Shown here in pieces: positions 10,470 through 27,596 of a DNA stretch of 32,220 bases. Under the pieces are notes generated by a model. That model worked only from the letters and a program-made list of their open reading frames with translations. It made no database searches and was not told the origin of the DNA. Origin of the DNA: Pseudomonadota bacterium. Its GTDB lineage: Bacteria > Pseudomonadota > Alphaproteobacteria > Rickettsiales > UBA1997. Within the stretch, counting starts at the first letter, position 1, and each line of letters starts with the position of its first letter. The position numbers were made by a program, and so were the translations under genes. The DNA is taken from positions 1-32,220 of the forward strand of contig RFYG01000005.1 in assembly GCA_009925685.1 (NCBI GenBank). The letters run 5' to 3'.

Positions 10470-11552
10470 ATGATTTATAAATCATATATTTTTAAAACAT
10501 CTTTGTTGAATTGGCTGAGCATAACTCTCATTTTAGTGGTTTTAATTTGGTTTAGTCGAGCAATAACTTTCCTGAATTTAGTCACCGAGAATGGTATTAA
10601 AATCCGCGATTTTTTCTTTTTATTTTTGTTAATATTGCCGTGGATTTTGATATATATTTTGCCAATTTCTTTCTTCGTTTCCACGCTTCTTTCTTTAAAT
10701 AAATTAAACAATAATAGCGAAATTATTATTTTAAAAAATTGCGGTTTATCAAATCTCAAGATTTCAAAGCCAATAATTTTTTTGGGTATTTTTATAACTT
10801 CAATTTGTTATTTTTTATCTTTTTACTTAATGCCTCTGGCCAATAAGCAACTGAGGATATCGCGCAATACAATCAAAGAAAATTATACAAATATTGCTTT
10901 CAATCCCCAAACTTTTGAGAGCTTCAACGGAATCACCATATACTCTGCTAAGCGCGATGATCAAAATAATCTTGAGGGACTTCTGATTAATGACCAAACA
11001 AAAAATGATTACACTATCACTATAACTGCTCAAAAGGGCAATTTGGTTGTTCAAGATGATGCGGTTTATTTGAAGCTTTGGAATGGAAGTTTGCAAAAGC
11101 ATATTTTTGAATCTGGCAAGACCGAAATTTTAAAATTTGATAACTATATTTTTAATTTAAATAACAAGGACCAAGAATATTCAGACTTTAAGTGGAAGCC
11201 CAACGAAAGATATATTACCGAGTTAATCAATTACGATATATTATCAACTGATGAGCAAATCAGGGCATTGCGTTCGGAGCTTCATAAAAGAATCAACGAA
11301 CCACTAATTTCTTTGATATTTAGTCTTATAATTTCAACCATAATTTTAAATGCAAAACTATCAAGGCGAGGCAATTTTTGGATATCTTTCTGGGCTTTGG
11401 GTCTATGTTTATCATATGTTATAATGCTTATATTTAGTTTTCGAATGACGGATAAAATCGATGATATTTTTTTCCTGCCATATTTGGTAAATTTAATTTA
11501 CTTAGCGATTTTTTTAGGCTTTATAAATGCTAATTTTTATATCAAAAAATGA
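10470..11552 (+). CDS. lptF: LPS export ABC transporter permease LptF
   Basis: 360 aa; N- and C-terminal TM blocks around a periplasmic domain, YIFKTSLLNWLSITLILVVLIWFSRAI, EIIILKNCGLS; 4-bp overlap with next permease. Confidence 0.85.
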   Translation: MIYKSYIFKTSLLNWLSITLILVVLIWFSRAITFLNLVTENGIKIRDFFFLFLLILPWILIYILPISFFVSTLLSLNKLNNNSEIIILKNCGLSNLKISKPIIFLGIFITSICYFLSFYLMPLANKQLRISRNTIKENYTNIAFNPQTFESFNGITIYSAKRDDQNNLEGLLINDQTKNDYTITITAQKGNLVVQDDAVYLKLWNGSLQKHIFESGKTEILKFDNYIFNLNNKDQEYSDFKWKPNERYITELINYDILSTDEQIRALRSELHKRINEPLISLIFSLIISTIILNAKLSRRGNFWISFWALGLCLSYVIMLIFSFRMTDKIDDIFFLPYLVNLIYLAIFLGFINANFYIKK

Positions 11553-12661
11553 TCCTCAATAAAATTAATTTATATTTAGCAAAAAATTTTCTTAAAAACT
11601 TCTTAATCATTGTTCTGGGCTTTTGGATTATCTTTTTTTTAATAAATTTAATCGATATTTTTAACCGAATTAATGATGCACAAGTCGGAATTAAATTAAT
11701 GTTTATTTTATCTTTTTTAAAAACCCCCAAAAACCTTTCATCTATTGTTGTTTCGATAGTTTTAATTTCTTCAATTTACACTTTGTTTCAAATGTCAAAT
11801 CGGACCGAAATCACTGTTATCAGAAATTGCGGATATTCATTGTGGCAAATTGCTAATCCACTCGTTATTTCGGCAATATTTTTGGCAATTATTTGGATTA
11901 TTTTTTTTAACTTTTTCGAGATTTGGTCTTCAAATAAATACAATAATTTTGAGGCGAAATATCTGCAAACAGAAATGCGAGAAACTCTTGATATTGGTAA
12001 TGGCATTTGGTTTAGGCAAAAAAATTTAATCAACGACTCCGAAACAATTATCATAGTGACCAGAAAAATTTACAAAAATAGTTTGGATTTATTTGAAGTA
12101 AGTTTGTGGTTTTTTGATAAAAATAATGATTTTTATAAAAGAGTGGACGCTCGAAAAATGTTTTTGAATAACGGAAAATGGGTGATTGAAAAAGCGATAG
12201 TAAATCAGGAAAATTCAATTAATCAAATGTTTGAATCAATTCAAATCCCAACTGAAATTGATGAAAATTTTTTGAAAAATAAAATTGTTAATAACTTTGA
12301 AAATGCCGAATCTTTTTTTATTTTTGAGCTTCCTAAAATTATTGATGATTTAAAAAAATCCGGTCTTAATCCAAAAAAATTACAAATTCATTTTCATTCC
12401 AAACTAAACTACATAATTTTGTTTGTGGCGATGGTTTTATTTTCAGTTTTTTTTGGCGTTAATGACGTTAGAAATCGCAAATCAAATATTAAACTTTTGA
12501 TCGGTATAATTTTTGGTTTAATGATTTTTTTAAGCTCCTCAATTTTTTCGACCCTTGGATCATCGGGCATCTTTTCGATTTTCGAATCGACTTGGCTGAT
12601 AAGTTTTATATATCTTGCAATTAGTATTTTGTTTATCCGAAGCAAAGAAACTAGACTTTGA
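11549..12661 (+). CDS. lptG: LPS export ABC transporter permease LptG
   Basis: 370 aa; YLAKNFLKNFLIIVLGFWIIFFLINLID, EITVIRNCGYSLWQIANPLVISA; paired with lptF. Confidence 0.87.
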   Translation: MILNKINLYLAKNFLKNFLIIVLGFWIIFFLINLIDIFNRINDAQVGIKLMFILSFLKTPKNLSSIVVSIVLISSIYTLFQMSNRTEITVIRNCGYSLWQIANPLVISAIFLAIIWIIFFNFFEIWSSNKYNNFEAKYLQTEMRETLDIGNGIWFRQKNLINDSETIIIVTRKIYKNSLDLFEVSLWFFDKNNDFYKRVDARKMFLNNGKWVIEKAIVNQENSINQMFESIQIPTEIDENFLKNKIVNNFENAESFFIFELPKIIDDLKKSGLNPKKLQIHFHSKLNYIILFVAMVLFSVFFGVNDVRNRKSNIKLLIGIIFGLMIFLSSSIFSTLGSSGIFSIFESTWLISFIYLAISILFIRSKETRL

Positions 12662-12855: not shown

Positions 12856-13476
12856 ATGAAAAAAACAATACTTACCCAATTGATGGTCATTTCTCTTGTC
12901 TTTTCTTGCGCTCCAAAAGTTGCTCAAGATGTTAAAAAATCTGCAAACGATCTGAGCGATTTGCCTGAATGGGTATTGGATCCAAAAATTAAAGATGGCG
13001 TTGCCGGGGTTGGTATTGCAAGTCCGTCACGCGCAGGAATTACAGTTCAACTTCCAAAAGCTGAACTCGATGCCAAAGCTAATATTGCTTCAACAATCCA
13101 ATCTGAAATTTCTCGCGTCACTAAAAATGCTTTGAGATCTGGAAAAGTTAACGATGCTGACGATGTTGAAGAATTTTTTGCTCAAGCTAGCAAAGAAGTT
13201 GTCAAAAATCTTCCACTTTCAGGTGCTAGAAGAATTCATATGTTCAAAGCTCAAGATGGAACTCTTTATGTTCACATGATGATTGATGATCAAGATTACA
13301 GCAAATTCTTAAAAAATAGCCAAAAAGAATTCGAAGAAAAACTAAAAAAATCAAATCTTAGTCGCGATAATATCGACAAATCTCAAACAGCTACCAAAGA
13401 TTTATTTGATGAGTTAGAAAAAGAGCGCGGAAATGTTCCGGCTCTTCCAGCCAAAACTGAAACTTCAAAAAACTAA
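12856..13476 (+). CDS. LPP20-domain outer-membrane lipoprotein
   Basis: 206 aa; lipobox SLVFSC then APK; LPEWVLDP..KDGVAGVGIASPS...AELDAKANIASTIQSEISRVTKNA resembles LPP20-family core. Confidence 0.8.
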   Translation: MKKTILTQLMVISLVFSCAPKVAQDVKKSANDLSDLPEWVLDPKIKDGVAGVGIASPSRAGITVQLPKAELDAKANIASTIQSEISRVTKNALRSGKVNDADDVEEFFAQASKEVVKNLPLSGARRIHMFKAQDGTLYVHMMIDDQDYSKFLKNSQKEFEEKLKKSNLSRDNIDKSQTATKDLFDELEKERGNVPALPAKTETSKN

Positions 13477-13485
13477 AATCAAAAA

Positions 13486-13545
13486 CTTGCCCAAATTTAA
13501 GGTCAAAATTTAAATTCTAATTATTTAAACTTTATTTTGGGCAAG
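13486..13545 (+). repeat. Inverted repeat, perfect 10-bp arms, 40-nt AT-rich loop
   Basis: CTTGCCCAAA (13486-13495) and TTTGGGCAAG (13536-13545), in the gap between the first two lipoprotein genes. Confidence 0.8.
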
Positions 13546-13567
13546 CAAAACTCCCACTTATAAAATC

Positions 13568-13723
13568 ATGAAAAAATTATCCGTTTTTCTACTTTTTTTG
13601 ACATTCTCTTGTTCAAATTATAACTCAGAATTATCTCAAACTTCTAAATCTTCATCGGCCTCTTCGCGCATTGATAATGTTCAGTCTGGTGCCAATAAAA
13701 TTTTTAAAGATATCAATGAATAA
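13568..13723 (+). CDS. Small (51-aa) lipoprotein, not in the supplied ORF track
   Basis: MKKLSVFLLFLTFSCSNYNSELSQTSKSSSASSRIDNVQSGANKIFKDINE*; hydrophobic leader plus lipobox LTFSC; 8-bp overlap with the next ATG (13716). Confidence 0.7.
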   Translation: MKKLSVFLLFLTFSCSNYNSELSQTSKSSSASSRIDNVQSGANKIFKDINE

Positions 13724-14693
13724 AAAAATCATAATCCTATTAAATATTTTGCTTTTAACCCTCGCAAATGTTGCGGTTGCTAAAGAATCAGGTATCCCAT
13801 CTTGGTTTTCAAAGCCTCGTAAAAATAATATTGATGTTTTATATGGCATTGGAGAGGGCGCTTCTCTTGAGGAGGCCACCAAAAATGCTCTTGCCGATAC
13901 GGCTGGCAAATTAGTGGTTTCAATTTCATCCGAATCACAGCTAATAAAGGAAGAAAATCAGAATAGTTTCAACGAAGAGTTGCGTCAAAAGGTTCGACAA
14001 TCTATCGAAAAAATCAGTTTTTCTGGTTACGAGGTTTCTAAAAGTGAAGAAATTGACAAAAGATTCTATGTCGAAGTTTCTGTCGAAAGAGATCCTTTTA
14101 TCAATGAGCAAAAGGAGCGAATCGAGTTTTTAAAACGCAAAATTAAAGATCTTGATAAAAATTCATCTGGAGCCAATCCAATTCAGCGAAGAACAAGCCT
14201 TATTAAAATTCTCGACTTATGCAAAGAACTTGAATTGAAAGGACGAATTTTGGCTGGCGCTCAAGAGGAAGTTGATATGAAAAATATTTTATCAAGCATT
14301 GCGAATTATCAAAATGAATTTGAAAAATCATCATCTTCGATTGAATTCTTTTTTGACAATTCGATTCCCAAAGATTTATTACAAATAATTCGAACCGCTC
14401 TTAACAAAGATGGACTTAAAATTGCTAAAAACTTTGATAAAAATGATGCAAATCAAATCGTCATAAAGGGCAATTATACCTCAACTTCAAATCTAATTTA
14501 TGGTGCTCACATTGTAAAAATTAATGCTGATTTTGAAAATTTTTCGCAAGAAAAAGTTGTGGCGAGTAATAATATCGAGGTTTCGGGAAGTTCAACTATC
14601 GGTGAATCTGAGGCCACAAAGTCCGCAATAAAATCTTTGGAAGAAAAAATTCAAAAAGATGGAATTCTTAAAATTCTCGGTATTTTGAATTGA
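13716..14693 (+). CDS. LPP20-like periplasmic protein
   Basis: Signal peptide MNKKIIILLNILLLTLANVAVA; IPSWFSKPRKNNIDVLYGIGEGASLEEATKNALADTAGKLVVSISSESQL resembles the LPP20 core; ORF-track start 13671 is upstream inside the small lipoprotein. Confidence 0.75.
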   Translation: MNKKIIILLNILLLTLANVAVAKESGIPSWFSKPRKNNIDVLYGIGEGASLEEATKNALADTAGKLVVSISSESQLIKEENQNSFNEELRQKVRQSIEKISFSGYEVSKSEEIDKRFYVEVSVERDPFINEQKERIEFLKRKIKDLDKNSSGANPIQRRTSLIKILDLCKELELKGRILAGAQEEVDMKNILSSIANYQNEFEKSSSSIEFFFDNSIPKDLLQIIRTALNKDGLKIAKNFDKNDANQIVIKGNYTSTSNLIYGAHIVKINADFENFSQEKVVASNNIEVSGSSTIGESEATKSAIKSLEEKIQKDGILKILGILN

Positions 14694-14733
14694 AACTCTC
14701 AAAAATAAAACCTTTAACAAAAAATTAAAAAAT

Positions 14734-15783
14734 ATGAAATTAAAACTTTTTGTAATAGCTCTAATTCTATCTTCTTGCACCCCAACCATTAAAAATTTTG
14801 AAAAATATCAAAAGCAATTTATTTCCAAAAGCGACTACATGCCTGACGAGCAAACCCTTGAAAACAAACTTTTGAAAGTTGCAATTTTTGATTTAGAAGA
14901 AGGTGATATTGAAATTGCAAAACAAGCTAACCTTGGAAAATCGGTTGCCACAGGAATCGAGAGCGCTTTATCAAAATATCGATTAGCAGAATTGGTTGAT
15001 AGAAAGGCCACTGAAAAACTTAAACAAGAAGTTCAGCTTGCTGAAATGAATAAAACCGGATCATACAAAGGCCCAAAACTGGCTGATTATGCGGTATCTG
15101 GAGCGATCTCAAACGCAAGTTTCGCCAATAAATATGTTTCGGGAAGTAGTTATGTTAATCCCAAAGATGGTTCGGTAATTTCGGTCCCACCTAGGTTTGT
15201 ATACAATTCACAAGTTTCGGGAAATATAAAAATTTATGAATTACCTTCTCTAGCGGTTATTGAAACGATTGAATTGAGTGGTAAAGCTGTTCGTTCAGAA
15301 AATGTTCAGCAAGATGGTGGAATTAGTTTGGGTGGAATTCAAATTGGTGGGGCGCAAGAGCGCGGAAATCAAAGAGATGATGGTCTTGTTCGTGAAGCTG
15401 GAGCTGATGCAATTGATGAAGCTGAAGCGTCAATTAGAAATGCTTTTGCCAAAAGAGGTTTTGTTCTCGAAAAAAGAACCTTTGAAGGTAAATCAATTTT
15501 TAAAATAAATCTTGGTTTTGAAGATGGTTTAAAACATGGCGACAAATTTGAGGTTATTGGTCAATATGAAGTTGAAAATTCTATCAGTGGTAAATCTGAA
15601 ATTGAGAGAAGAGTTATTGCCTCTGGAGTTATTTCCGACAAAATTGATCCAAAAAATTCTTGGATAATTCTAGCCGATCCAAAGCAAGATTCTGTAATTA
15701 GAATTGGGGATATGGTAAAAATGAAATATTCCAAAAGTGCCCTAAAATCTTTTACTAAAATGGCCAATAACCTAGGTAAATAA
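14734..15783 (+). CDS. CsgG / TolB-N-like outer-membrane lipoprotein
   Basis: 349 aa; lipobox LILSSC then TP; LLKVAIFDLEEGD....ANLGKSVATGIESALSKYRLAELVDRKA...LADYAVSGAIS resembles CsgG-type domains; C-term GDKFEVIGQ...VIASGVISDKI...DSVIRIGDMVK resembles a FlgT-C-like beta domain. Confidence 0.7.
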   Translation: MKLKLFVIALILSSCTPTIKNFEKYQKQFISKSDYMPDEQTLENKLLKVAIFDLEEGDIEIAKQANLGKSVATGIESALSKYRLAELVDRKATEKLKQEVQLAEMNKTGSYKGPKLADYAVSGAISNASFANKYVSGSSYVNPKDGSVISVPPRFVYNSQVSGNIKIYELPSLAVIETIELSGKAVRSENVQQDGGISLGGIQIGGAQERGNQRDDGLVREAGADAIDEAEASIRNAFAKRGFVLEKRTFEGKSIFKINLGFEDGLKHGDKFEVIGQYEVENSISGKSEIERRVIASGVISDKIDPKNSWIILADPKQDSVIRIGDMVKMKYSKSALKSFTKMANNLGK

Positions 15784-15789
15784 AATCTA

Positions 15790-16659
15790 ATGAAAAAAAT
15801 AGCTGGCCTGTCAGAAATAATTCAAGATTACAATTACTATATTTTTGATATTTGGGGTGTAATTCATGATGGTTCCAAGCTTTACCCAAATGTTTTGGAA
15901 ACTTTAAATTATCTTCGCAAAAATCATAAAAAAATTTGCTTTTTATCAAATGCTCCGAGAAGGGCTTCAAAAGTTGAGCAAATATTAAATAAATTCGGTT
16001 TAGGTAATCAACTTTACGATTTTGTCCTTAGTTCGGGAGAGTCAACATTCGTTGAGTTAAAAGATAATCAAGATAATGACTATAAAAATTTTGGTAAAAA
16101 ATATTTTTATATTGGGCCCGAAAAAGATTTGGATCTACTTGAAGGACTTTTTTATCAAAAAGTTGATGAATTGGATAAAGCAGATTTTGTCCTAAATACC
16201 GGTTTTGACAGCGATAACTCAACTATCCATGAAAAATTACCGCTTGCAATTCAGGCGAGCAAATTTAGACTGCCGATGCTTTGCGTTAATCCTGATCTGA
16301 TTGTTGTGAAACAGAATGGTGAAGAGATGATTTGCGCAGGTGCTTTAGCCCTTGAATATAAAAAACTTGGTGGCGATGTCCACTATCATGGAAAACCCTT
16401 TAAAAGGGTTTATGAAATGGTTCTTGAAAAGTTCTCAATGCCCAACAAAGATTCTATCTTAGCAATTGGAGATGGTCTTGAAACCGACATTAAAGGAGCT
16501 AATGATTTTAAAATTAATAATATTTTTGTTTCGGGTGGTATCTTAGCAAAGGAATTAAAAATTAATTTTTGGCAAGATGCTAACGAAATTTCACTAAAAA
16601 AGGTCTTTAATAAATATAACATTTTCCCAAATTATATAATTTCAAATCTAAAAATATGA
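15790..16659 (+). CDS. HAD-IIA family hydrolase (TIGR01459-like)
   Basis: 289 aa; YIFDIWGVIHDG, CFLSNAPR, YHGKPFKRVYEMVLEK, LAIGDGLETDIKGAND. Confidence 0.9.
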   Translation: MKKIAGLSEIIQDYNYYIFDIWGVIHDGSKLYPNVLETLNYLRKNHKKICFLSNAPRRASKVEQILNKFGLGNQLYDFVLSSGESTFVELKDNQDNDYKNFGKKYFYIGPEKDLDLLEGLFYQKVDELDKADFVLNTGFDSDNSTIHEKLPLAIQASKFRLPMLCVNPDLIVVKQNGEEMICAGALALEYKKLGGDVHYHGKPFKRVYEMVLEKFSMPNKDSILAIGDGLETDIKGANDFKINNIFVSGGILAKELKINFWQDANEISLKKVFNKYNIFPNYIISNLKI

Positions 16660-26594: not shown

Positions 26595-27596
26595 ATGATA
26601 AATAAAATTAAAAAACCTAATAAACACATTTCAATCAAGGCGTACACAATGATTGAAGTCTCTTTATTAATTATAGTTCTTGGGATTCTTATTACTGGAA
26701 TATATCAAGGCACTAATATTTATCGCGAAACAGTTACATCAAGATCCCAATCTCTTACTCAAAATTCAATTCTTGGTAGAACCAACAATATTTTATTGTG
26801 GTACGAAACCACCCTCAGTTCAAGCTTGATAAGCGCTCAAAGAAAAGACTCTCAACCAATTACTCAATGGTTTGATAATAACCAAAAAAGTGTTGATAAA
26901 AATAATGCTTCAGCCTCACAGAAAATTGATGATACACGAATCGATTATGAAGCAAGTGCCGGTTTCTCAAGCTCAGGACCGCTTTATATTGAAAAAGGAA
27001 TTAACTATTTACCAACTCTACGATTTAAAAATACCTCAAATAGCTCACAATTCTTGGCCGTTAATTCTATAAAATTAGGATCTTCGAGTTTAGCTATTTT
27101 TTTGGTTATGCAATTTAAAAGCTATTCTTCTAATGCATATATTTTTGATAGAATTTGCACCAAAACAAATGGATCAGTTACCGTAATTGAGTCTGAAGCT
27201 ATAAATCAATGCAGGCCAGTGTTTTCGGTAAATATCAGTCCTCAAAATTTAATAAATTTTACGCTTACCAATCAATCAGCAAGCCTTAACTCAACCACTA
27301 ATAATCTTTCAAACATAGTGGCCAAAAATACGCCATATTTAATTCAATTTGAGCGCGATTTTAACCAAACTCTAAAATTTTATTTGAATGGCAAATTGCT
27401 CTCCTCGGGCGTTGATAATCTTAGTCAGTTTGATTCTTTGCCTTTAAAAATCGGTAGACATGCAAGCCTAAGTTCGGTTGAATCGGAGTTTGATTTATCG
27501 GAAATAGTTATCATCGAAGATAAAATTGACAACGAGCGCAAAAAAGAAATCGAAAATTATTTCTCCAAAAAATACTCCATCAAACTCAATCGATAG
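26595..27596 (+). CDS. Prepilin-type N-terminus fused to a LamG/concanavalin A-like domain
   Basis: N-term ...KA/YTMIEVSLLIIVLGILITGIYQG (Glu at +5 after A/Y); C-term TLKFYLNGKLLSSG...LKIGRH...FDLSEIVIIEDKIDNERKKEIENYFSKKYSIKL is LamG-like. Confidence 0.75.
   Translation: MINKIKKPNKHISIKAYTMIEVSLLIIVLGILITGIYQGTNIYRETVTSRSQSLTQNSILGRTNNILLWYETTLSSSLISAQRKDSQPITQWFDNNQKSVDKNNASASQKIDDTRIDYEASAGFSSSGPLYIEKGINYLPTLRFKNTSNSSQFLAVNSIKLGSSSLAIFLVMQFKSYSSNAYIFDRICTKTNGSVTVIESEAINQCRPVFSVNISPQNLINFTLTNQSASLNSTTNNLSNIVAKNTPYLIQFERDFNQTLKFYLNGKLLSSGVDNLSQFDSLPLKIGRHASLSSVESEFDLSEIVIIEDKIDNERKKEIENYFSKKYSIKLNR

Follow-up and report, generated by a model that had tools for sequence, protein, structure and literature searches.

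FlgT- and LPP20-type domains on separate genes: a four-gene envelope cluster in flagellum-less Rickettsiales

Four co-directional genes, here designated A, B, C and D, occupy positions 12856–15783 on the + strand of the window, the 32,220-nucleotide stretch of DNA under analysis, which makes up a single 32-kb contig in an assembly of 1.45 Mb and 181 contigs from a freshwater Rickettsiales bacterium. Three of them, A, C and D, encode relatives of LPP20, HP1454 and FlgT and are retained together in genomes of the order that have no flagellum. The cluster is best explained, with a confidence somewhat short of even, as the source of a flagellum-independent ring or collar at the interface between outer membrane and peptidoglycan, assembled from FlgT/FlgP-type domains that are separated from one another. 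The proteins would join in a complex, presumably with ring geometry, and the ring would surround some further structure. No published description of the cluster was found in a limited literature search.

Gene A (12856–13476, + strand) encodes an LPP20-type lipoprotein of 206 residues with the lipobox VFSC-A and a conserved C-terminal helix, KELFDELEKE. Gene B (13568–13723, +) specifies a lipoprotein of only 51 residues whose lipobox, TFSC-S, is weak. Gene C (13716–14693, +), which starts with the ATG at 13716, encodes a 325-residue HP1454-type protein with a signal-peptidase-I-type end, AVA-KES, and gene D (14734–15783, +) a lipoprotein of 349 residues (LSSC-T) that combines a CsgG/TolB-N-like domain with a FlgT_C-type C-terminal domain. 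The first-pass annotation had described a four-gene envelope cluster lying in a row on one strand, with three lipoboxes and no Asp at +2; coordinates, strand and order were verified, the lipoboxes of A, B and D were confirmed, and the +2 residue is not Asp in any of the three.

The lptF and lptG genes (10470–12661, +) lie upstream of A and are conserved in the window's family, according to neighbourhood comparison, and a HAD-family phosphatase gene (15790–16659, +) adjoins D; both are treated as context, the lpt pair lying outside the module. The gap between lptG and A measures 194 bp, and the successive spacings from A through B, C and D to the phosphatase gene are 91, −8, 40 and 6 bp. As the last 8 nt of B are also the first 8 nt of C, the two are probably translationally coupled, and a transcription unit may begin at A; promoter and terminator scans gave results at chance level only. 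The neighbours at large are housekeeping genes, with names read from sequence: nuo, metZ, lptF, lptG, the HAD phosphatase, a parvulin-type gene, trmH, nadK and topA. In the window's family the phosphatase gene stays beside D even at loci where D is separated from A and C (L036, L037).

All four genes are under purifying selection. In each, dN falls far below dS, with values of about 0.11 and 1.5 for A, 0.34 and 2.0 for B, 0.18 and 1.4 for C, and 0.12 and 1.1 for D; the dN/dS ratio is about 0.07–0.09 for A and about 0.17 for B. The order A-B-C-D is also preserved at many independent loci.

Profile searches for A, C and D in an order-level sample of 131 genomes recovered A in 16, C in 15 and D in 14, and all 14 genomes with D also harbour A and C, even when the genes are unlinked. 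Conservation across relatives had been proposed as a check on the cluster, and this result supports co-conservation. The co-occurrence corresponds to a Fisher p of about 1e-18; since this value takes no account of phylogeny and the three families involved are possibly one clade, more weight falls on the joint retention of genes that are unlinked. Family f1 has the cluster mostly intact, C and D are together with A nearby in f28, and the genes are dispersed in f15. The named relatives that a search with protein D brought up are Rickettsiales or MAGs of uncultured Alphaproteobacteria. In the f15 genus g57 the profiles did not find C or D; an LPP20 match situated ∼1 kb from a CsgG match (G093:C10:150352-151792) suggests that a diverged C-D pair may persist there. 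In another f15 genus, g51, D lies divergent from a VirB11-like ATPase gene (L041 4523-6679, L040 8542-10727).

The genomes that carry the trio are devoid of FlgI, the single marker used for the flagellum. Neither the window's genome nor any of the 14 genomes with A, C and D has it; 65 of the 131 genomes of the order do. LPP20 domains were detected in 17 genomes of the order, all belonging to f1, f15 and f28, and all three families lack FlgI. The constant company of A, C and D in flagellum-less relatives indicates that their job is probably non-flagellar, in keeping with the non-flagellar setting that had been surmised from the window. A clade termed DDG has been reported to be without flagella (PMC10847448); f1, f15 and f28 may be families of this clade, which would fit.

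Protein A of the window scores below the curated cut-off of Pfam LPP20 (PF02169; E 0.09, 13.7 bits, cut-off 25.9). A match to this model was obtained for 14/14 aligned homologues (best 8e-7), with those of f15 and f28 above the cut-off, and the lipobox Cys is invariant among homologues. A profile of A found no meaningful match among PDB sequences.

The small lipoprotein B accompanies A. Its Cys is invariant in 8/8 aligned homologues, and a B profile recovers it in every genome of the same family, directly after A each time (7/7); two f28 genomes have a lipoprotein of 45–47 residues in the same position. The A-B adjacency extends to nine genomes of two families and survives with C and D elsewhere, as in G062, where the pair lies about 22 kb away from C. 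Since B tracks A across genomes in this way, it belongs to A and not to C; the earlier placing of B in the set is right in that B is a real small lipoprotein and needs amending in that its partner is A. A spurious ORF was considered and is ruled out by dN << dS and by the recovery of B after A in same-family genomes. When A and B were compared with hhalign, the signal peptides alone were aligned. A gapless comparison of mature B with the C-terminal helix of A (KELFDELE) reached up to 12.6 bits, against ≤9.8 across 4200 shuffles, and the same comparison of mature B with C and D yielded at most 2.5 bits. Common descent of the B tail and the A helix, both short and acidic sequences, is only suggested by these scores. 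B resembles a lipid-anchored mini-copy of the C-terminal helix of A.

Protein C is a member of the LPP20 family in its own right (E 2.6e-10, 41 bits against the same cut-off of 25.9), which together with the matches of the A homologues upholds the LPP20 similarity claimed for both proteins. The label LPP20-like is accurate as to that domain but falls short of the whole protein, which is a distant homologue of HP1454 and of the same multidomain type. A profile built from 18 homologues matched H. pylori HP1454 (PDB 4KZS) with E 1.2e-9 over chain residues 2–201, and the AF2 model (pLDDT 82) retrieved 4KZS as the top Foldseek match (E 6.8e-8, 291 columns), LptE-like lipoproteins coming next. Likeness in sequence and fold thus spans several domains of 4KZS, and the architecture consists of an LPP20 domain, a helical hairpin and an LptE/TolB-N-like C-terminal domain. 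Pfam LptE did not match C, and the idea that C is the missing LptE was rejected, as two genomes that carry C (G014, G092) have separate lptE genes. The C of the window, like that of its closest relatives, bears a cleavable Sec signal, and a lipobox Cys is present in the majority of homologues farther removed; within the C family lipidation has been lost or gained.

Protein D is related to FlgT through its C-terminal part. The window's D matches Pfam FlgT_C with E 6e-4, under the cut-off, and among 25 homologues FlgT_C was found in 17 (best 8e-7) and CsgG in 2; the FlgT_N and FlgT_M models gave no match to D. Against one true three-domain FlgT, with all three FlgT Pfam domains over cut-off, the D profile reached E 6.5e-11, the similarity being confined to the C-terminal part. 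Against PDB sequences the D sequence produced no match and its profile found FlgT weakly (E 0.13). Foldseek with the AF2 model (pLDDT 82, pTM 0.75) placed Vibrio FlgT (3w1e) first with E 1.5e-13, a chain of the LPHT ring (8z5n) second and CsgG next (best 1.6e-6); TM-scores of these matches are about 0.3, so the domain arrangement differs from that of whole FlgT. A FlgT proper unites FlgT_N, FlgT_M and FlgT_C in one chain, and D has FlgT_C alone by Pfam. D is therefore FlgT-like, of the middle plus C-terminal type without FlgT_N, and A and C supply the LPP20/SHS2 domains, an arrangement that agrees with the earlier suggestion of FlgT-like domains split over separate genes.

The CsgG/TolB-N likeness originally ascribed to D stands insofar as CsgG is among the fold matches, but FlgT is closer and the loops of D are unlike the membrane hairpins of CsgG. 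At the position of CsgG hairpin 1 there is a short polar hairpin with a DG turn (TYxxxDGxxxxIP), kept from Rickettsiales to other Pseudomonadota. A second loop is polar as well, and it is short or absent in homologues from other Pseudomonadota. Some f15 homologues (L043) have a more hydrophobic insert there.

Outside the order the genes are scarce. C was found in 0 of 288 other genomes of a class-level sample, and D in 12/398 other genomes of a phylum-level sample, several of these being true FlgT or matches to the C-terminal part only. Four near-full-length D homologues, from two Pseudomonadota families, have an adjacent C, and the gene order is C-D-A. In these loci the gene after C-D-A encodes a protein of 460–500 residues that has a lytic-transglycosylase domain of the SLT type and in some cases is Mltc_N-like, and a conserved 270-aa gene without a Pfam match lies nearby (L125 6019-12414, L126, L127, L128). 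In L125 a papain-family protease gene then follows. The transglycosylase also flanks a D homologue in a third Pseudomonadota family. A search by title or abstract found no published link between lytic transglycosylases and LPP20. The near-complete trio-bearing relative G014 has only a Slt70-like transglycosylase and neither an MltC-like nor a 270-aa partner; hence the core is taken to be A-C-D and the wall enzyme to be specific to lineages. The notion of a self-contained complex is accordingly unproven, since a transglycosylase and one more conserved gene join the trio elsewhere and one Rickettsiales family has it scattered, and the first-pass annotation as a whole emerges as largely right and partly supported.

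The proposed ring or collar would be organized as follows. A, C and D would be the core of a complex anchored in the outer membrane, in which D, with its middle and C-terminal type of FlgT domains, most likely assembles into a full or partial ring beneath the membrane. The LPP20/SHS2 domains of A and C would pack with D, so that separate chains fill the role that FlgT performs as a single chain and to which FlgP adds round flagella. B might modulate A or dock it by means of a helix like the A C-terminus. The complex would have its place where outer membrane and peptidoglycan meet and would work with a dedicated lytic transglycosylase in other Pseudomonadota; this partner suggests that its probable task is to brace or open the cell wall round some envelope structure. 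Several findings speak against this scheme, among them the restriction of the profile similarity between D and FlgT to the C-terminal part and the lack of a motility or barrier defect in an H. pylori Δhp1456 mutant (PMC11756786). A β-hairpin insert correlates with ring formation in FlgP and FlgT, and an SHS2-like fold is common to FlgP, Lpp20 and FlgT (PMC12222027); at the position of that insert the C model has a low-confidence loop and then a helix, with no strands, which argues against a ring. The MltC-like partner, moreover, is missing from G014.

Among characterized systems the HP1454/HP1456 operon of H. pylori offers one parallel. The genes for HP1454 and HP1456 (Lpp20) share an operon there, and in two-hybrid assays each of the two proteins binds FlgP of the basal disk, yet a Δhp1456 mutant shows no defect in motility or barrier function (PMC11756786). 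Profile and fold both tie C to HP1454, A falls in the LPP20 family with HP1456, and LPP20 genes are co-operonic in H. pylori and probably here as well; in contrast, H. pylori is flagellated, its proteins touch FlgP/FapH, and the account consulted mentions no D-like gene. The H/T ring of Vibrio, formed by FlgO, FlgP and FlgT, is similar in that D resembles the middle and C-terminal domains of FlgT and that A and C have the LPP20/SHS2 fold of FlgP and FlgT. It differs in that here the domains are on separate genes and D is a lipoprotein; as there is no flagellum (no FlgI) in the genome, the cluster falls outside that flagellar ring system. The FlgP basal disk of Campylobacter has in common with A an outer-membrane lipoprotein of LPP20-family fold, but the C model is without the ring-forming β-hairpin insert of FlgP and no motor exists here. 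CsgG and PelC, which are ring-forming outer-membrane lipoproteins, share the fold of the D core domain; D lacks hairpins of transmembrane type, and no curli or Pel genes were seen in the cluster.

Several other explanations compete with the ring. An unlikely one casts A, C and D as LpoB-like cofactors of a PBP or lytic transglycosylase, which they would recruit or activate without forming a ring or channel. LpoB has a TolB-N-type fold, C and D carry domains of that type, and the MltC-like transglycosylase invariably follows the trio in two Pseudomonadota families and flanks a D homologue in the third. A class A PBP is present in 8/8 genomes tested, but such enzymes are near universal, so their presence is uninformative; moreover, LpoB does not figure in the 50 listed fold matches of either D or C, and G014 has no dedicated transglycosylase. 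A CsgG-type secretion pore, with D as the channel, A and C as a collar and B as a plug or chaperone, appears less probable still. Among the fold matches of D, CsgG structures form the second group, two further homologues add to the two of 25 that match Pfam CsgG, and ring formation is common among relatives with this fold. Set against this, the polar loops stand where CsgG has its membrane hairpins, sequence evidence that makes such a pore unlikely; in addition, the window's genome has no Pfam CsgG (PF03783) match and the cluster has no obvious secreted substrate.

An accessory function in LPS transport, in which the cluster assists LptDE or LptFG, is very unlikely. Besides the lptF/lptG pair upstream of A in the window's family, lptG adjoins D in one f28 genome, and C resembles LptE structures in its C-terminal domain; yet the LptE match is common to many TolB-N-like lipoproteins, D included, G014 and G092 possess a separate lptE in addition to C, f15 shows no lpt linkage, and A, C and D are absent from most Rickettsiales. 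Scarcely credible is a relic of a lost flagellar H/T ring or basal disk, now decaying or repurposed. The fold likeness to FlgT and the LPP20/FlgP group and the many flagellated families in the order would suit it, but selection is strongly purifying and distant genomes carry the trio again, amid genes that are not flagellar. As a leftover of a local flagellum the cluster is rejected, because LPP20 occurs in no flagellated member sampled.

The outer-membrane ring or collar thus remains the preferred reading, and it has a bearing on protein families of the LPP20, FlgP, FlgT and HP1454 kinds, which have drawn attention almost exclusively as accessories of the flagellum or as antigens of H. pylori. 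The trio is conserved in flagellum-free genomes, and in bacteria unrelated to these it neighbours a lytic transglycosylase; together this implies a common role that is not flagellar. A wider and more doubtful proposal, possible though improbable on balance, is that flagellar disks of the FlgP/FlgT type descend from, or have a common ancestor with, a non-flagellar C-D-A ring of the outer membrane that is widespread, opens or braces peptidoglycan and serves another envelope apparatus in flagellum-less, probably extracellular Rickettsiales. The origin of the disks of high-torque motors becomes testable in a flagellum-free background, and A, C and D provide a marker set for the flagellum-less families of the order. 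Elsewhere in the window, positions 26595–27596 encode a pilin-like N-terminus (AYTMIEVSLLIIVLGILITGIYQG) fused to an apparent LamG/concanavalin-type domain.
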